From Vreelandella boliviensis LC1 (lineage in GTDB: Bacteria; Pseudomonadota; Gammaproteobacteria; Pseudomonadales; Halomonadaceae): DNA of 64,000 nt. Below, in pieces: positions 5,872 through 47,713 of this stretch; the stretch's first letter is position 1, and each line of letters starts with the position of its first letter. A model generated the notes under the pieces. The model made no database searches and was not told where the DNA came from. It saw only the letters and a list, made by a program, of their open reading frames with translations. A program made the position numbers and the translations under genes. The DNA is taken from assembly GCF_000236035.1 (NCBI RefSeq), contig NZ_JH393259.1, positions 62,001-126,000 of the forward strand. Direction: 5' to 3'.

Positions 5872-6961
5872 GGGCAGCTCCTCCCTGACGTACAGGGATA
5901 TGTACCGTATGGCCCTGCTTGTCGAAGGCGTAAAGTTGATGGGTCGGGAAGTACACTTTCAGTGGTTGATTAATACTAAACTGGTGAATACCCGCTAAGT
6001 GCAGAACGAGAGGAAAGCGTTCGTGATGAACATGCAGGAAGGTTTCTGAACCACTGATTTCTGCCACATCCACATGCACATCCAGCGCTAGGTCATCGGC
6101 CTGCTGGGGTTGCAGTGTAAGGTGCGAAGCCCGCACGCCAAAGTCGTAATCACCCGGTTCAAGGCGCTTTAGCTTGTCGTCACAGGGAAAGTGCAGCGTT
6201 TGATCAAAGGTGATCTCGGTATCGGTCAACTGGCCGGGAACGATATTGATCGGCGGCTCGGAGAACATTTCTGCACTGAAGCGACCGTTGGGTTCGCGAT
6301 AGACCTGCTCGGTAGGGCCATACTGGAGCAGCCTGCCCTCATGGAGTACCGCCGTATTACCGCCCAGCGCCAGTGCTTCATTGGGCTCGGTGGTGGCATA
6401 TACCGCAATGCAGTTACGCGCTTTAAACAATTCGCGAAGCTCATCACGCAGCTCTTCGCGAAGTTTATAGTCCAGGTTGACCAGCGGCTCATCAAACAGA
6501 ATCAAATCGGCGTCTTTAACCAGTGCTCGCCCCATGGCAGTGCGTTGCTGTTGGCCGCCGGAAAGCTCCTGGGGGTAACGATTGAGCAGCTGCTCGATAT
6601 GCAGCATTTCAGCGATTTCGCCAACCCGCTTATCGATTTCGCTTTTAGGCTGTTTGGCCAGTTTGAGTGGCGAGGCAATATTGTCGTAAACGGTAAGACT
6701 GGGATAGTTAATAAACTGCTGGTACACCATGGAGACATTGCGTTTACGCACCGAGACGTTCGTGACGTCTTTGCCATCCATCATCACTTTGCCGCGGGTG
6801 GGTGGCTCAAGCCCCGCCATCAAGCGCATTAAGGTGGTTTTACCGGCCAGCGTTCGACCCAGCAATACGTTAAATGAGCCTGGCTCAAGGGCTAGGTCTA
6901 TTCCGCTGATATGCGGCACACCGTTAACGATGTGATCGATATTTTGCAAATGTAAGGACAT
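5864..6961 (-). CDS. glpS: Glycerol ABC transporter ATPase subunit GlpS
   Basis: A 365-aa ABC ATPase and the first gene of the importer operon. Walker A is unusual (GRTLAGKTT, about residues 35-43) but keeps GxxxxGKT. The signature [15 protein letters not shown] and Walker [13 protein letters not shown] are intact. The switch His is absent: the position reads YATTEPNEA rather than VTHDxxEA. With GlpT lacking LSGGQ and GlpS lacking the His, the pair looks functionally asymmetric. A C-terminal TOBE-like region follows. The ATG at 6961 has only a modest GAGA ribosome site, 13-bp tandem repeats just upstream, and a GlpR-like palindrome about 120 bp upstream. Confidence 0.87.
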
Positions 6962-7116: not shown

Positions 7117-7186
7117 CTGCAACGCATTTTTAGGGCAATGGACTACGCTTTTAGGCGTAGAAAGTGAAAATTTAAATTGTAAACAC

Positions 7187-40627: not shown

Positions 40628-41104
40628 TTAGTTTTGCCGCTGCTCAGTAAAGCGCTGCATGATGGCGAGGGTTTCGTCGCTCACATGGTGCTCCATGCCT
40701 TCAGCGTCAATACGCGCAGTAGCATCTCTCACCCCAAGGGCGCGTAAAAAGTGCAGCACGATATCGTGGCGGGCGCGTGACGTTTCCGCCATTTTTTGGC
40801 CCGCTTCGGTTAGAAACAGCGAGCGATAGGGCTTGCTAGTGACCAACTCCAGCTCATTTAAACGCCGAATCATTTTTGAAACCGTTGCCTGGCTGACCGC
40901 CATACGGTTGGCAATGTCTGCCGCGCGCGCTTCGCCGCGGTGTGCCAATAGGTCGCCAATTAGCTCCACGTAGTCTTCAATCAGTTCGGTTTCGTGGGCA
41001 TTGCGCACCGTTGCATACTGCTGCGCATGCTGCTCGACGGGCGGCAAAGCATCACCAGGAATGCTTGGGGCGGTCAATGAGGCGTTCGGATTAGAATCAG
41101 TCAT
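40628..41104 (-). CDS. mntR: Manganese-responsive regulator of the DtxR/MntR family
   Basis: A 158-aa DtxR-family repressor. A 30-residue N-terminal extension precedes a winged helix (about residues 40-95; RAADIANRMAVSQATVSKMIRRL). The dimerisation/metal domain has HDIVLHFLRALGV and EGMEHHVSDETL, with Glu/His ligands, as in proteobacterial MntR. I use the ATG at 41104. A TATAAT hexamer lies only 6 bp upstream (41111-41116), so the transcript may start at or next to the ATG and be leaderless. It is divergent from the metal importer it probably represses. Confidence 0.88.
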   Translation of the reverse strand: MTDSNPNASLTAPSIPGDALPPVEQHAQQYATVRNAHETELIEDYVELIGDLLAHRGEARAADIANRMAVSQATVSKMIRRLNELELVTSKPYRSLFLTEAGQKMAETSRARHDIVLHFLRALGVRDATARIDAEGMEHHVSDETLAIMQRFTEQRQN

Positions 41105-41153
41105 TGGCAAATTATATCGGAAGCAGTGGGAACAATCATTGGATAGTCATTGG
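41101..41153. repeat. TCATTGG direct repeats at the mntR promoter
   Basis: TCATTGG occurs at 41101-41107, 41136-41142 and 41147-41153. The last two are within the 11-bp spaced pair TCATTGGATAG/TCATTGGGATAG. They flank the mntR -10 element. A binding protein is not known. Confidence 0.6.
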
Positions 41154-41181
41154 GATAGTAGCGTATTTTTAAACAATATTG

Positions 41182-41195
41182 TTAGCCAAGGCTAA
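41182..41195. promoter_or_regulatory. Putative MntR operator
   Basis: TTAGCCAAGGCTAA is a perfect 6-bp half-site palindrome around AA. Its core TAGC-N4-GCTA matches the core of the E. coli MntR box as I recall it. It lies 69 bp upstream of the importer operon and 78 bp upstream of mntR. Confidence 0.65.
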
Positions 41196-41264
41196 ACTGT
41201 TTGCACAATGCTTTTTTATTGAGCTACAGTCTACTTATCGGTTATGCACAATAAAGGAGAGACA

Positions 41265-42185
41265 ATGAGTAAGCGCAACCTGGGTATGGCTTTGAGCCTA
41301 CCGCTATTGTTGAGCGCTGCACTGGCCAGTGCAGAGGCGCAAGAGAGTGCGACGTCTCCCCTAAATGTGGCAGTCACTTTTTCCGTGCTTGGCGATATTG
41401 TTACCAGCGTGGTAGGTGAGGATGCCAACGTCTCGGTATTAACGCCGATTGGCGCTGAGGTGCACGAATGGGAATTAACCCCCAGTAATTTCGCTGCGTT
41501 AGAAACAGCAGACGTAGTGTTTTACAACGGTTACCAGTTAGAGCAGTGGATGCCCCAGGTTGAGGCAACGGTTGTCGACGGCACGCCGCTGGTGGCGGTC
41601 GCTGAAGCCTCTGAATACCCCACTCAAAACATCATTACCGGTGATATGGAAGGTGATATTGACCCCCATCTATGGATGGATCCACGTGCAGTGTCAGCCT
41701 ATGTTCAGGTCGTTGCTAATGAGCTAGAGCACTTACTTCCCCAGCGGGCTGAAGAGTTCCAGCAGCGTGCAGAGGCGGTGAAAGAAGAACTGCATGCGTT
41801 GCATGTTGAACTCCAGGAGCGCTTAGAAGTAATACCTGATGAGCACCGTGTTCTACTTAGCAGCGAAGCCGCCTTTTTATATTTCTCAGACGCATATAAC
41901 TTTGAGCACGATGGTATCTGGGGTAACAATGCCGAAACCGAGGGCTCGCCCCGTCAGCTCATGCGCGTGGTGGATATGATTAATGAACTCCAGCCAGCGG
42001 CGCTGTTTTGGGAAAGTACTATTTCTGACCGCCACGTTACCAGTCTGGCGCGGGATACGGGCGTTAAAGTAGCGGGGCCGCTATATGTGGACTCGCTCAG
42101 TGAACCCAGTGGTGATGCAGGTGATTATTTCACTATGATGCGCCACAACGTTGAGTTATTGCGCCAAACATTGGCAATTGAGTAA
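41265..42185 (+). CDS. Manganese/zinc ABC transporter substrate-binding protein
   Basis: A 306-aa cluster A-I (ZnuA/MntC-like) binding protein with a signal peptide (LGMALSLPLLLSAALASAEA). Probable metal ligands: His in GAEVHEWELTPSN, His in DPHLWMDPRAV, Glu in LLSSEAAFLYFSDAY and the C-terminal Asp/Glu region. There is no His-rich loop, which is common in zinc ZnuA. That, with the divergent mntR and operator, favours manganese. The start at 41265 has AAAGGAGAGACA. Confidence 0.88.
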   Translation: MSKRNLGMALSLPLLLSAALASAEAQESATSPLNVAVTFSVLGDIVTSVVGEDANVSVLTPIGAEVHEWELTPSNFAALETADVVFYNGYQLEQWMPQVEATVVDGTPLVAVAEASEYPTQNIITGDMEGDIDPHLWMDPRAVSAYVQVVANELEHLLPQRAEEFQQRAEAVKEELHALHVELQERLEVIPDEHRVLLSSEAAFLYFSDAYNFEHDGIWGNNAETEGSPRQLMRVVDMINELQPAALFWESTISDRHVTSLARDTGVKVAGPLYVDSLSEPSGDAGDYFTMMRHNVELLRQTLAIE

Positions 42186-42191
42186 ACGATC

Positions 42192-43019
42192 ATGGCAACA
42201 ACTCTTGGCGACGTCCCCGTAGCGATTAATATACAAGGCCTCTACGCAGCCTATCAGCGCCAGCCCGTCTTGGAAGACATTAACCTGCAGTTTCCAGCAG
42301 GGAAGTGGACTGCCATTGTGGGGCCGAATGGAGCAGGAAAATCCACGCTTTTTCATGTACTAACCGGCAGTATGAAAGAGCTGCGTGGGAGTGTTCAGGC
42401 ATTTGATGAGCCGATTGCGACGCACCGTAAAGCGGGGCATATCGCCTATATGGCCCAGCGCGAAGCCATTGAATGGGATTTTCCTGTTTCCGTGTGGGAG
42501 ACCGTAATGGGGGGCCGCTACGGGCATATGCGCAATGATCCGTTATGGCGGCGTTTGTTGCCTTCCCGCTGGTACCATCCCCGCCACGGCGAGGCTGTGC
42601 GTGAGGCGCTGCTGGCAGTCGATATGCTATCACTGGCGGAGCGACCGATTGGCGCGCTCTCCGGCGGGCAGAAAAAGCGTGTATTACTGGCCCGTACGCT
42701 CGCCCAGCAGGCCAATATTTTACTCCTTGATGAGCCATTGGCGGGGGTGGATCCGCCCAGTGAACGATTGATTTTAGACGTACTTGCTCGGGAGCGAGAG
42801 GCAGGGCGAACGGTTATTATGGTGACTCACGATATGCCCGGTGCTCGTCGTCATGTTGACCATGTGGTGCTGATTAACCGCTTTATCCGTGGTGTAGGGT
42901 CGCCTGATGAAATGCTTAGTGATGCTAAATTGGCTGAGCTGGCAGTGAGTTCTATCGAACAGGCGGCGAGCGATGTGCGAGCCGCTGAAGCATCTTCCTT
43001 TATGGCAGCTCGGGGGTAA
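42192..43019 (+). CDS. Manganese/zinc ABC transporter ATP-binding protein
   Basis: A 275-aa ABC ATPase: Walker A GPNGAGKST, signature LSGGQKKRVLLARTL, Walker B ILLLDEPLAGVD and switch His MVTHDMPG. It lies 6 bp after the binding-protein gene. It provides energy for metal import; family members pair with nine-helix permeases such as the next gene. Confidence 0.92.
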   Translation: MATTLGDVPVAINIQGLYAAYQRQPVLEDINLQFPAGKWTAIVGPNGAGKSTLFHVLTGSMKELRGSVQAFDEPIATHRKAGHIAYMAQREAIEWDFPVSVWETVMGGRYGHMRNDPLWRRLLPSRWYHPRHGEAVREALLAVDMLSLAERPIGALSGGQKKRVLLARTLAQQANILLLDEPLAGVDPPSERLILDVLAREREAGRTVIMVTHDMPGARRHVDHVVLINRFIRGVGSPDEMLSDAKLAELAVSSIEQAASDVRAAEASSFMAARG

Positions 43020-43024
43020 GCAAA

Positions 43025-43960
43025 GTGGCAGAACTAATGACGGCACTGAGCCTGTTTGGCGATACCTTGGTGAGTTGGCTCATCGCTGCATTGATGGTCA
43101 TTGTCAATCTATTACCCGGTAGCATTTCAGATGCCTTCCAGTACGCTTTTATGCAGCGCGCCTTGTTAACCTCGGTGCTGGTGGGGGCTATTTGCGGCAT
43201 TTTATCCTGCTACGTGGTGCTTAAGCGCTGGTCACTGCTGGGGGATGCGATTTCCCATGCGGTACTGCCGGGGGTGGCAATTGCCTACCTGCTTGGTTGG
43301 CCATTCTTTATTGGTGCTTTTATTACCGGTGCATTGACCTCAGTGGGTATTGGCGCTATTGAGCGCCACACGCGGATTAAATCCGATGCGGCCATGGGTT
43401 TGATGTTTACCGGCGCTTTTGCATTGGGCATTGTGATTATCAGCAAGATCGCCTCAAGCACACATCTAATGCATATTCTGTTTGGCAACGTGCTGGGTGT
43501 TCAGCAATCGGCGCTTCTGTTGACGTTGGTAGCCAGCGTGATTGCCCTGTTAGTCGTGTGGCTCGCTTATCGGCCACTGCTGCTATACGCTTTTGACCCC
43601 CAGCAGGCTCAGGCGCTGGGTTTTAATTCCAGCGTTATTCATTACGGTTTGATCTTGCTGCTAACCCTGACCATCGTGGCGAGTTTAGAAACGGTGGGTA
43701 TCATTTTAGTGGTGGCGATGCTGATCACCCCAGGTGCTACGGCACACCTGCTGACCGACCGTTTTAAAACCATGATGCTGATTTCCGTGGGTGTTGGGGT
43801 TAGCTCTGCGATCATCGGACTATGGCTATCGGTGTTGCTGGACGTTGCCTCTGGCGGCACCATTGTGTTGGTTGCCACCAGCTGGTTCTTTATCGCACTG
43901 CTGTTTTCACCCAAGCATGGTCTGTTACTGCGCCAGTGGCGTCGCTGGCGCATGGGTTAG
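43025..43960 (+). CDS. Manganese/zinc ABC transporter permease
   Basis: A 311-aa permease with about eight or nine spans of the ZnuB/MntB type (YVVLKRWSLLGDAISHAVLPGVAIAYLLG; coupling-loop region YALDPQQAQALGFN-like, here YAFDPQQAQALGFN). The GTG at 43025 follows GGGGGTAAG; an ATG at 43037 is possible. It is the last gene of the importer operon. Confidence 0.9.
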   Translation: MAELMTALSLFGDTLVSWLIAALMVIVNLLPGSISDAFQYAFMQRALLTSVLVGAICGILSCYVVLKRWSLLGDAISHAVLPGVAIAYLLGWPFFIGAFITGALTSVGIGAIERHTRIKSDAAMGLMFTGAFALGIVIISKIASSTHLMHILFGNVLGVQQSALLLTLVASVIALLVVWLAYRPLLLYAFDPQQAQALGFNSSVIHYGLILLLTLTIVASLETVGIILVVAMLITPGATAHLLTDRFKTMMLISVGVGVSSAIIGLWLSVLLDVASGGTIVLVATSWFFIALLFSPKHGLLLRQWRRWRMG

Positions 43961-43991: not shown

Positions 43992-44333
43992 TTAATCCGA
44001 TGATTCGGAAAGCGATTTAATCTGACTCTTAACTCCCACGGCATCTTCGACATCCAACTGAAAGGCAATGCCTGTGCCGGGGGTTTCATCAAATTCGCCT
44101 ACCTGGGCAATCGCCTCGAGAATATGGCGGCTGCGGTGCTCCTCTGCCAGGAAAAGCAGCATATCCCGCTGTGCGGTAATCTCCATGCCAAAAATGCCGT
44201 GCGCTTTCTTAAGCCCTTCGCCGCGGGCATTATTGATCACCGTGGCGCCGGTAGAACCCGCATGGCGAGCTGCTTCAAGAATAGCATCGGTTAATTCGTC
44301 TTCCACCATGGCAACAATCAGTTTAAAGCGCAT
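43992..44333 (-). CDS. PII-like signalling protein
   Basis: A 113-aa protein with the ferredoxin-like PII fold: FKLIVAMVEDELTDAILEAARHAG (beta1-alpha1), GATVINNARGEGL (beta2), a T-loop-like KKAHGIFGMEITAQRDML stretch, and LLFLAEEHRSRHILEAIAQVG (beta3-alpha2). The uridylylation Tyr of GlnB is absent. It is the last gene, 28 bp after two DUF1538 membrane genes, so it probably gates or senses for that membrane pair, as GlnK does for AmtB. Ligand and signal are unknown. Confidence 0.82.
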   Translation of the reverse strand: MRFKLIVAMVEDELTDAILEAARHAGSTGATVINNARGEGLKKAHGIFGMEITAQRDMLLFLAEEHRSRHILEAIAQVGEFDETPGTGIAFQLDVEDAVGVKSQIKSLSESSD

Positions 44334-44361
44334 CGTGATTTCCTTTTCCTAACTACTTGTT

Positions 44362-45138
44362 TTACATGGGTGTTAAGTCATTAGCGGAGCGCGTCCGGGT
44401 GGCTCGCCATTGAGCAATTTGGGCATAACCCATCACGGTAATAATGGGGAATAAACAGGCAAGTGCGATCATGCCGAATCCATCCATTACCGGGCTGCGC
44501 CCAGGGATTTCTGTTGCAAGGCCTAACCCCAGCGCGGCAATAATCGGTACGGTAATGGTCGACGTAGTGACGCCACCCGAGTCGAATGCCAGCGGAATGA
44601 TGGAGCGTGGCGAACGCAGGGTTTGCACAATGACCAGCAAGTAAGCGGCGAATACGAACCACTGTAACGGCCAGCCCATCACAATACGCCAAGTGCCCAG
44701 CGTAATTCCAAAGGCCATACCAAGTGCAACCGCAACGCGCAGCATCAATGGATCAATCGTGCCACCGGAAATCTCACCTGCCTTCAATGACACCGCAATG
44801 AGCGATGGCTCGGCAATAGTAGTGCTGGCACCAATAGCAAAGGCGAAAATATATACCCAGTAATAGTCGCTCCAATGGCGCTGGGCACCCTCGGCTAAGA
44901 TTGGCAAAAACTCATGGTTGGTGAGTTGGGTCGCCATTAATTCACCCATTGGAAACAGTGCTTGTTCCAGGCCGACTAAAAAAAATGATAGCCCCACCCA
45001 AACCATGAAAAAACCCATCAAGACCTGCGGAAGACGCTTTACGGGCTTACGAATGACCAAGTATTGGAAGCCGAAAACGATGGCAGCAATAGGCAGGATA
45101 TCCAGCAGAGTCCCCCAAAAAGTGGCGATAAGCGTCAT
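44362..45138 (-). CDS. DUF1538 integral membrane protein (second copy)
   Basis: A 258-aa protein with about seven spans. Family landmarks are [18 protein letters not shown] and [13 protein letters not shown], both in polar breaks within helices that suggest a transport path. It is paralogous to the preceding gene (shared [20 protein letters not shown] and [12 protein letters not shown]). Its start overlaps that gene by 4 bp, suggesting a stoichiometric pair. Function is undescribed to my knowledge. Confidence 0.82.
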
Positions 45139-45902
45139 GGAACGACTCCTGGTATCAGGTGGATACCAATAATGCCAAATAACAGCACAAAAATAATCGG
45201 CATCACAGATGCCAATGCAATCAGTCCAAAACCGTCGAGCATCGGGCTGCGGCCTTTTATAGAAGACGCCAGACCTACGCCCAATGCCGTCACCAGCGGC
45301 ACCGTGATGGTAGAGGTTGTGACACCGCCAGAGTCATAAGCGATGCCTATCATCTCGGCGGGGGCAAACAGTGTTAACAACAGCACCAGCATGTAACCGG
45401 CAATAATCATTAAATGCAGCGGCCAGCCCTTAAAAATACGTACTACTCCTAACACTACCGCTACGCCGACAGAAGCAGCTACCACCATGCGCAGCGCAAA
45501 AGCAAAGCTATTTTGTGCGCGAACGCTGTTATCGATTAGACCGCCTAGGGCAACAACTTCAGCCGCTCGGGCAGCGATGGCGATCAAGGCAGGCTCGGCG
45601 ACGGTAGAGCCAAGCCCCAGTGCAAAAGCAAACATCAGTAGCCATGATACCGAGCCTTTTTTTACAAATGCTCGCGCTAGGTTCTCGCCCAATGGGAATA
45701 GTCCCAGCTCAAGTCCTTTAATAAAGAGTGTCAGGCCCACGAGAACAAACACCAAGCCAAAAGCCAGATCGATCAAGGCGAGGGAGTCGGGTAGTGGCTG
45801 ACGAATAACCACTAACTGGAAAAACGCCATCACCAATACCACTGGCGCAAGGTCGCGCAGGCTATCTTTAAATTGGTGGGCAAGCGATACCACAAGATCC
45901 AT
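45135..45902 (-). CDS. DUF1538 integral membrane protein (first copy)
   Basis: A 255-aa membrane protein homologous to the next gene, with [17 protein letters not shown] and [20 protein letters not shown]. About seven hydrophobic segments are visible. It is the first gene of a three-gene operon with a second DUF1538 gene and a PII-like gene. Two non-identical copies point to a heterodimeric transporter or channel; the substrate is unknown. Confidence 0.82.
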
Positions 45903-46106: not shown

Positions 46107-47507
46107 TTAGAAGCTGCCAAACAGTGTTCCTAAGGTAATGACGCTGAGTAGCGCGATGACCGGCAATGCAATGGTTACCATGGCAACGTTGCCATAAGAT
46201 TGGCGATGGGTAAGGCCGCAGATAGCGAGCAGAGTGATCACAGCACCAGAGTGGGGGAGTGTATCCATGCCACCCGCCGCCAGCGTTGCCACACGGTGCA
46301 TTAATTCAGGGTTAATGCCTGCTTCTTGCGCCATGGCTAGGTATTCGCTGCCTAGGGTCTCTAGCGCAATGGAGAGTCCGCCGGAAGAGGAGCCAGTGAT
46401 CCCAGCCAGCACGCTCATCGCCATAGCTTCTGAAATCAGAGGATTGCCGGGGGATGCCGTAAGCACTGCATCGCGGATAATCGCAAAACCTGCCAAACTG
46501 GCAATGACGGCACCGTAGCCTACCTCTGAAGCAGTGTTGAAAATCGGAAGTAGTGAGCCCAAGCAGCCTTTATTGATGCTCTCTTTAAGATCCATCCAAT
46601 GCTTCCAGCGGGTAATAATCAGCCATGCAGATGCGCTGAGTAGGGCGATCAGAATGGCCCAGAGCCCGCTCTGACCCGATGGGGATACATTTTCAAACTC
46701 GTCGCTGATAAAGGTTAAATCAAGGGCGGGAAATACGCCGTAGGTAAACAGTGCATTCAAACCAATCACCATTATGATTGGTATCAGTGCCAGCCACAAA
46801 GGAAGGCTTGCGGTGGGTGCTTGTTCTTGTTCTTCATTGGCAGCTGCTTCGCGCTCAGTATGTTGGCCGTATCCTTCACCATTAGATGCCGCTTTTTTTA
46901 CCCGTGACTGAAGATAGAAAGTCCCCAGCCCAAGCATAATCAGCCCGGCGATCATACCGAGACCAGGTGCTGCAAAGCTATTGGTTTCATAATAAGGAAT
47001 GGGAATCGCGTTCTGTATCGAAGGTGTTCCCGGTAGGGCTGTCATGGTGAAGGTGAAAGAGCCAAGCGCAATGGAAGCAGGAATTAGCCGTTTGGGCAAA
47101 TTGGCGCTACGAAACAGTTCGCGGCTGATCGGATAAATGGCAAAAGCAACGACAAACAGCGATACGCCGCCATAGGTGAGCACCGCGCAGGCCATGACGA
47201 CGGTAAGCACGACATGATGGGTGCCCAGCTTTTTGACAATCCCGTTGGCAATCGATTGGGCAGCACCGGAATCGGCCATTAACTGCCCAAACAAAGCACC
47301 CAATAGAAACAGCGGGAAGAACTGGATCACGTAGTTGCCCAGCGCGCTCATAAAGGTATCTGTGTAGATCGGCAATAAAAATGCGGCATCGCCAGAGAGC
47401 AGCACCGCTAAACATGCCATAAGAGGAGCCAGCAGCAGTACCGAAATGCCGCGATAAGCGAGGAACATTAATAAAAGCAGTGAAATGACAATCGCGAGTA
47501 TGCTCAT
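46107..47507 (-). CDS. GntP-family organic-acid permease
   Basis: A 466-aa permease with about 11-12 spans, typical of GntP-type gluconate/hydroxybutyrate/citrate proton symporters. Visible: NYVIQFFPLFLLGALFGQLMADSG, GGVSLFVVAFAIYPI, LPGTPSIQNAIPIPYYETNSF, TGSSSGGLSIALETLG and HSGAVITLLAICG. A charged loop (about residues 225-250) divides the halves. The ATG at 47507 has TAGGAG upstream. It is monocistronic. Substrate cannot be named; D-beta-hydroxybutyrate or gluconate are possible. Confidence 0.82.
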   Translation of the reverse strand: MSILAIVISLLLLMFLAYRGISVLLLAPLMACLAVLLSGDAAFLLPIYTDTFMSALGNYVIQFFPLFLLGALFGQLMADSGAAQSIANGIVKKLGTHHVVLTVVMACAVLTYGGVSLFVVAFAIYPISRELFRSANLPKRLIPASIALGSFTFTMTALPGTPSIQNAIPIPYYETNSFAAPGLGMIAGLIMLGLGTFYLQSRVKKAASNGEGYGQHTEREAAANEEQEQAPTASLPLWLALIPIIMVIGLNALFTYGVFPALDLTFISDEFENVSPSGQSGLWAILIALLSASAWLIITRWKHWMDLKESINKGCLGSLLPIFNTASEVGYGAVIASLAGFAIIRDAVLTASPGNPLISEAMAMSVLAGITGSSSGGLSIALETLGSEYLAMAQEAGINPELMHRVATLAAGGMDTLPHSGAVITLLAICGLTHRQSYGNVAMVTIALPVIALLSVITLGTLFGSF

Positions 47508-47713
47508 ACGAGCTCCTAAGCAAACAGTAAAGTAGCCGACGCTGAAATTCAGTGAAAGAGCGATGGTAGGTAGTATGGTGCGATGCAGCAATGGTGTCGC
47601 GACTAAAGTAGCAATGCGTTAAGCATGAACCGTGGCCTTAGGTTTACCTATTTAATCTGCTAAAATCCGCCCCCTTCGCCGTTAATGACCTTTCAATTGC
47701 TCTAGGAAACTTC

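Follow-up and report, generated by a model that had tools for sequence, protein, structure and literature searches.

A PII-like gene is a conserved, type-matched partner of the UmpAB (DUF1538) antiporter genes

The locus considered here raises the question of why a gene for a PII-like protein lies directly behind two genes for paralogous membrane proteins, and of what the three products do together. The window, a 64,000-nucleotide stretch of the Vreelandella boliviensis LC1 genome (contig NZ_JH393259.1, positions 62,001 to 126,000), carries on its minus strand a homologue of umpA (45135-45902; 255 aa), a homologue of umpB (44362-45138; 258 aa) and the PII-like gene (43992-44333; 113 aa). The first two overlap by 4 bp (45135-45138), and the PII-like gene starts 28 nt past umpB. 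Both membrane proteins match the Pfam family DUF1538 (PF07556; E 1.8e-63 for the umpA product and 4.8e-65 for the umpB product), their scores of 214 and 219 bits exceeding the gathering score of 22.6. They are 41% identical to one another across ~255 aa and constitute the only DUF1538 locus of the genome. The third protein matches P-II (PF00543) with an E value of 4.2e-12 and 46.7 bits against a cut-off of 25. The gene coordinates, motifs, 4-bp overlap, PII family membership and missing tyrosine given in an earlier reading of the DNA alone (hereafter the original prediction) all agree with this analysis. Spacing and conservation suggest that the three genes form one operon. A scan of the locus for promoter-like sites returned 2 where 2.5 were expected, and one for terminator-like sites returned 6 where 3.0 were expected, none of them in the gap behind the PII gene; neither scan supports a claim about transcription signals. 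Just past umpA lie a GntP-family permease gene (46107-47591, minus strand) and a Na+/H+ antiporter family gene (PF03553; 47714-49063, plus strand); two Paraclostridium plasmids likewise have a GntP permease next to their DUF1538-PII locus. On the other side, a metal ABC importer cluster (ZnuA-like protein, ATPase and ABC-3 permease; 40628-43960) is convergent with the PII gene, and a regulator of the iron-dependent-repressor type is encoded on the minus strand within that region.

The membrane pair has a close published relative. UmpA and UmpB of the window are each 83% identical to their counterparts in the genome of V. zhaodongensis NEAU-ST10-25, with which the locus shares the gene pair, the gene order and the overlapping junction, and UmpB is 97% identical to that of V. 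titanicae BH1. The NCBIfam model for UmpB (NF041628) is passed with 514.9 bits against a cut-off of 500. The model for UmpA (NF041627) is the best match of the other subunit (7.6e-129), but the score of 428.1 bits lies under the cut-off of 490 in spite of the 83% identity, and the protein is therefore termed a close UmpA homologue and not an NCBI-grade equivalog. The umpAB genes were cloned from Halomonas zhaodongensis by Meng et al. 2017 (PMC5484666), via selection in an antiporter-stripped E. coli strain. According to the accessible text of that report, the two subunits form a heterodimer as judged by co-immunoprecipitation, and vesicles with both carry out Na+(Li+,K+)/H+ antiport that depends on pH, peaks at pH 9 and has K0.5 values of 0.26-0.46 mM. 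The vesicle assays employed a umpA-umpB subclone, and growth was also rescued by a vector for co-expression of umpA and umpB. Seven segments are predicted there for the published homologue, matching the seven-span architecture of the original prediction; a Kyte-Doolittle scan of the window pair yields overlapping windows from which no single span count emerges. The earlier statement that no substrate had been assigned is not upheld, the pair being closely related to UmpAB, a heterodimer with published Na+(Li+,K+)/H+ antiport. Its description of the system as a candidate undescribed one does not extend to the transporter, which was already known, and applies to what is new here, the PII gene and the CBS-domain gene that often follows it.

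The two subunits also share two sequence motifs. AEP(A/S)LIA is common to both, its AEP located at 45591-45599 in UmpA and at 44806-44814 in UmpB, and a 13-residue motif of the DSGGVTT type is identical in the two proteins, at residue 190 of UmpA (45297-45335) and residue 186 of UmpB (44545-44583), all on the minus strand. The shared 12-residue stretch and EP(S/A)LIA of the original prediction are therefore found in both paralogues. An AlphaFold2 model of a naturally fused DUF1538 relative (pLDDT 85, pTM 0.86) places the motifs at or beside breaks between helices 79-95/98-110 and 165-177/183-197 in the first half and between helices 331-347/350-362 and 417-429/435-449 in the second, much as had been surmised from apparent helix breaks in the sequence. 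The acidic residues equivalent to those of the AEP motifs (E97 for UmpA, E349 for UmpB) and of the DSGGVTT-type motifs (D173 and D425, respectively) are invariant in both halves among 20 fused relatives, and we propose, from this conservation and from their position in the model, that they are ion-binding residues. Comparison of the fused model with the PDB by Foldseek gave MATE1 as the best match (E 0.0097, TM 0.17), a result that shows neither a new nor a known fold, and VIA-align gave a best Z of 7.9, with respiratory oxidases in the top rows and no usable relative. DUF1538 sequence profiles are without a match in the PDB.

The lack of a clear relative of the fold model among solved structures has a bearing on the natural substrate, as do the origin of the published activity in an antiporter-stripped host (PMC5484666) and the presence of DUF1538 on plasmids carried by Clostridia of gut, soil, mud and sludge origin. 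All three are compatible with a transporter whose main substrate is not Na+/H+, in which case the E. coli phenotype would be incidental, with the PII and CBS proteins controlling a different flux, such as that of K+, bicarbonate or an organic ion. We regard this as unlikely, given that the vesicle assays cited above recorded pH-dependent exchange of Na+, Li+ and K+ for H+, with the optimum and K0.5 already stated, and that DUF1538 is among the key genes of a genome-to-growth-pH model (PMC13255231, in its accessible text). As a heterodimeric Na+(Li+,K+)/H+ antiporter, by extension from its close homologue, the window pair would export alkali cations and would steady internal pH in saline or alkaline surroundings.

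Whether the PII gene belongs to this antiporter was addressed by a survey of gene neighborhoods, the check that the original prediction had itself put forward. Linkage was defined as a PII gene on the same strand no more than 300 nt downstream of a DUF1538 gene, and the profile used for counting PII genes was grown from the same loci. Among 79 named loci, which are relatives of the window's UmpB chosen by their likeness to it, linkage is found in 79 and a PII gene stands by the UmpB pair itself in 78; in the exception (L068), two PII genes of an adjacent fused system lie directly upstream of the UmpB pair. In an evenly drawn sample of 249 genomes from the window's phylum (grouping as supplied by the tool, one DUF1538 locus per genome), DUF1538 occurs in 105 genomes and in 35 of 131 genera, and 95 of the 105 show the linkage, with a median gap of 35 nt and a maximum of 236. 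A single family, f30, contributes 59 of the 105 genomes, which are hence non-independent; linkage is seen in 55 of these 59 and in 40 of the 46 outside. The ten unlinked genomes comprise four in which the locus is at a contig end (G248, G120, G236 and G218, all f30), one with a partial gene (G156) and five true misses of an adjacent PII gene at the examined locus (G121, G245, G093, G084 and G116), although in G121 a second DUF1538 locus does have an adjoining PII gene. Beyond this phylum, in that of a planctomycete (Planctomycetaceae MAG), DUF1538 is present in 7 of 199 genomes with PII beside it in all 7, and nine plasmid records match DUF1538, from Alphaproteobacteria and Clostridia, with PII in 8/8 of the loci examined. 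PII genes of any kind number just 0 to 8 per genome in the 249-genome sample (at least one in 244), so that this linkage is far beyond chance. A PII gene as a chance neighbor, in a 4.2-Mb genome with three such genes, is thereby rejected.

Conserved linkage of this kind is a trait of PII-gated transporters such as GlnK-AmtB and SbtB-SbtA. The original prediction, which would have fallen had PII and DUF1538 genes failed to co-occur elsewhere, survives this check, and its picture of a transporter of two subunits that has a PII-family protein of its own is supported by the linkage together with the UmpAB homology. Three loci depart from the usual arrangement in other ways. In Halomonas sulfidaeris (L077), umpA, umpB and the PII gene are each broken across frames, by decay or by sequencing errors; at another locus, a short PII-like remnant follows the system but is encoded on the other strand (L046:7538-7759, minus strand); and a Chelativorans plasmid typed as conjugative (L117) carries DUF1538-DUF1538-PII with a shortened first DUF1538 gene.

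The association extends to the type of PII gene. The transporter occurs as separate umpA and umpB genes with one PII gene, as a fused protein of ~500 aa with one PII gene (a second PII gene being found farther on in 3/8 such named loci), as a fused protein of ~570-600 aa with two PII genes, and as a fused protein of ~500 aa with a double PII. Pairs with one PII number 71 in the 105-genome sample, fused systems with two 17, and fused systems with one 7, of which two (L129 and L146) lie on stretches too short to exclude a second PII gene. The plasmids of Clostridia encode one 500-aa protein with both DUF1538 domains, followed by a gene with two PII domains. Such double-PII genes after fused DUF1538-DUF1538 occur at L118, L120-L124, L175 and L176, drawn from the Clostridia plasmids and the planctomycete-phylum sample. 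The nearest relative of a PII domain at below 90% identity shares its transporter architecture in 218 of 220 cases, a count that left out seven PII domains not assignable to an architecture. In the seven genomes, of related genera, that contain both systems, the two PII proteins are only 22-28% identical to each other in 7/7, and each shares 62% identity or more with its counterparts in the remaining genomes of the set. This agreement between PII type and transporter architecture implies that transporter and PII evolved as units. On the Pfam P-II check at E<=0.001, 62/62 representatives from the pair type match, as do 33/44 from fused systems, so that some of the second-PII calls in fused systems rest on the grown profile alone. 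A DUF1538-PII fusion, sought as proof of contact, was rejected, with no such ORF in 228 loci, which counts against the regulatory reading given below. By comparative genomics, the PII-like gene is a conserved, type-matched partner of UmpAB.

The partnership is strong and not exclusive. A search with alignment A1 at E<=1e-20 finds the PII subtype in 85 of the 249 genomes; 80 of these are among the 105 DUF1538-bearing genomes and 5 among the 144 that lack DUF1538 (Fisher p 3e-36, relatedness ignored). Among the 101 hits listed, 78 are on a DUF1538-bearing stretch and 23 elsewhere; 18 of these 23 were inspected, and DUF1538 appears in none of the stretches taken. The PII can thus serve other partners in some lineages. 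Four of the genomes without linkage at the examined locus (G084, G116, G156 and G093) encode the subtype elsewhere in the genome. In the three loci from family f50 (L243, L244 and L245, from G084, G116 and G156), PII is followed by a CBS gene apart from DUF1538, and a malic enzyme-phosphotransacetylase gene adjoins the two in 2/3 genomes, the third locus being at a contig end. In families f38, f51 and f60, a second PII of the subtype occurs near an amino-acid-kinase gene that is argB-like by reading (L241, L246, L248, L249 and L253) or near a bacterial SH3-domain gene (L242, L246 and L248).

The malic enzyme-phosphotransacetylase and argB-like neighborhoods lend themselves to a different account, in which the PII-like protein is merely co-transcribed with umpAB and acts on, for example, an enzyme of carbon or nitrogen metabolism, connecting salt or pH stress to metabolism and leaving the transporter untouched. 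Within a single genome, however, the PII subtype tracks the transporter subtype, and the gene remains beside DUF1538 in Alphaproteobacteria, Clostridia and the planctomycete's phylum, so that we consider this account very improbable. A dedicated regulatory subunit of the antiporter is the reading preferred here.

The PII-like protein itself has the fold of its family without the hallmarks of the nitrogen regulators. An AlphaFold2 model built from a 60-sequence alignment (pLDDT 86, pTM 0.78) adopts the PII fold, with GlnZ as its best match in the PDB by VIA-align (Z 14.0, rmsd 2.5, 99 aligned). A uridylylatable Tyr51 in a long T-loop is a trait of canonical GlnB and GlnK. The window protein contains no tyrosine at all, and in alignment its T-loop region is ~5 residues shorter than that of canonical PII proteins; among 153 homologues of the pair type, A, T and S account for 131 at the Tyr51 column, counting the four commonest residues listed. 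K90 and R101 (E. coli GlnB numbering), which we take to be the phosphate (ATP) contacts of canonical PII proteins, occur in 0/153 of these homologues at either position, whereas G37, G87 and G89, the glycines of the T-loop base and the B-loop, are retained in at least 151/153. The genome encodes three PII genes, and the two canonical ones, on another contig, both possess Tyr51, K90 and R101. The window protein thus has neither K90 and R101 nor Tyr51 in a long T-loop, the traits of canonical nitrogen-type PII proteins, and the possibility that it is one of the nitrogen PII genes of the genome is rejected. The label of a nucleotide-sensing PII is accordingly upheld as to family and not supported as worded as to nucleotide sensing, since the canonical ATP contacts are gone. 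A nucleotide ligand is possible; judged from the aligned residues, it would not be held by the residues that GlnB and GlnK use.

Genomic context offers a further clue to the ligand. A small CBS-domain gene lies downstream of PII in 110 of 161 loci, at a gap of no more than 51 nt in 109 of the 110; the 161 were selected for a PII scoring over 60 bits together with either a CBS gene or no less than 700 nt of sequence, a selection that removed 23 of the 184 loci. All 39 aligned representatives match Pfam CBS. V. zhaodongensis has such a gene (L021:7176-7583), unlike the window, in which it is missing from the locus, as it is in the nine closest named relatives (L006-L014); elsewhere in the genome, CBS matches are weak, the best at 37 bits. 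Where present, as in most of the relatives counted, the CBS-domain protein probably adds an adenine-nucleotide input. This proposal is relevant to an alternative in which the PII-like protein would be a CutA1-like ion or metal sensor, with UmpAB activity set by Na+, K+, a divalent ion or pH in the cytoplasm. Such a sensor would account for the loss of K90 and R101 in all 153 pair-type proteins, an ion or pH is the natural signal for an antiporter, and the PII-NG protein encoded next to CzcABC, a proton/cation antiporter, has been considered as a metal sensor with reference to CutA1 (PMC7726332, in its accessible text). The retained glycines, the frequent CBS neighbor with its suggestion of adenine nucleotides, and the PII-like proteins SbtB and CPII, solved with adenine nucleotides according to PDB titles, argue in the other direction, and on balance we hold the ion-sensor alternative to be unlikely.

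If the PII gene is so regularly present, its omission from the original description of UmpAB calls for explanation, and a probable one is offered by the cloning itself. The V. zhaodongensis NEAU-ST10-25 genome has a PII-like gene right after umpB (locus L021, ATG at 6806), whose product is 85% identical to that of the window. The published clone is a 4.2-kb partial Sau3AI fragment that begins inside ORF1, the cloned portion of which matches residues 142-464 of its relative, or 323 residues (PMC5484666, in its accessible text). In the genome sequence, cutting at the GATC of position 2729 leaves 323 codons of ORF1, and the GATC 4.17 kb onward, at 6901, lies within codon 32 of the PII gene; the next, at 7117, is still inside the PII gene and would make a clone of ~4.4 kb. 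Judged from these genomic sites, the clone, deposited as KY241440, probably ended inside the PII gene at codon 32, which would explain why the gene was overlooked. The main text of PMC5484666 contains no occurrence of PII, P-II or GlnB. No link between UmpAB and PII was found in the literature on UmpAB and antiporters, within a coverage in which subscription papers, preprints and supplements are thinly represented; a match to the text string 'pii' in the accessible part of PMC7221264 was rejected as not referring to a PII protein. By this reading, the known growth and vesicle experiments described in the accessible text on UmpAB used either umpA and umpB or a clone with only a PII fragment. 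Because umpA and umpB alone gave antiport there, the PII-like protein is not required for transport.

Taken together, these observations suggest that UmpAB is regulated by a partner overlooked at its first cloning, and we think it likely that the three genes are an operon for a UmpAB antiporter with the PII-like protein as its dedicated regulatory subunit. That protein is most likely a PII-type trimer at the cytoplasmic face, where it would damp or gate antiport according to its bound ligand; it should be dispensable for catalysis, as umpA and umpB of the homologue work in E. coli. Transport systems for ammonium, nitrate, urea and bicarbonate have been described as being under PII-type control, which seems to be restricted to transporters that work as trimers (PMC10710835, in its accessible text). 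Inhibition would be likelier than activation, because UmpAB works without PII and the PII-transporter pairs of that review are inhibitory. Known PII-controlled transporters are said to be trimeric and UmpAB is reported as a heterodimer, so three UmpAB heterodimers may assemble together, or PII may bind in another way. The fused UmpA-UmpB proteins, with one PII gene, two PII genes or a double-PII gene, hint that transporter and PII combine in a fixed ratio; a PII trimer sitting on three assembled UmpAB units would be one example. A fuller proposal, that of a PII-gated cation/proton antiporter with UmpA-UmpB as its catalytic part, a PII-like protein for a non-canonical ligand and, in most lineages counted, a CBS protein, is advanced more tentatively, as one with close to even prospects. 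A PII-like protein, often with CBS, is in any case tied to a pH/salt antiporter family present in 105 of 249 genomes of the phylum. How UmpAB is regulated, and by which signal, becomes testable with three or four small genes, and the system offers a way towards identifying the ligand of a so far unassigned PII subfamily.

The UmpAB-PII system bears some resemblance to three others in which a PII-family protein accompanies a transporter. In GlnK-AmtB, a PII gene is likewise paired with a membrane transporter gene, and GlnK of the AmtB complex (2ns1) has the same fold as the window PII (Z 13.0, rmsd 2.6, 105 aligned), but the transporter is of another family and the window protein has a T-loop ~5 residues shorter and is without Tyr51, K90 and R101. 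The PII-NG gene next to CzcABC likewise shares its operon with the genes of a proton/cation antiporter (PMC7726332, in its accessible text); CzcABC, however, is a metal pump, unlike UmpAB, and no RND/Czc gene was found by Pfam in the ten ORFs scanned between 39.8 and 49.1 kb of the window (three of the operon and seven neighbors). In SbtB-SbtA, a PII-like protein is again dedicated to one cation-linked secondary transporter, and the SbtB structures 6mm2 and 5o3q appear in the Foldseek list of the window PII. SbtA is a bicarbonate transporter trimer, as far as the accessible sources describe it, in contrast with the DUF1538 heterodimer of UmpAB.
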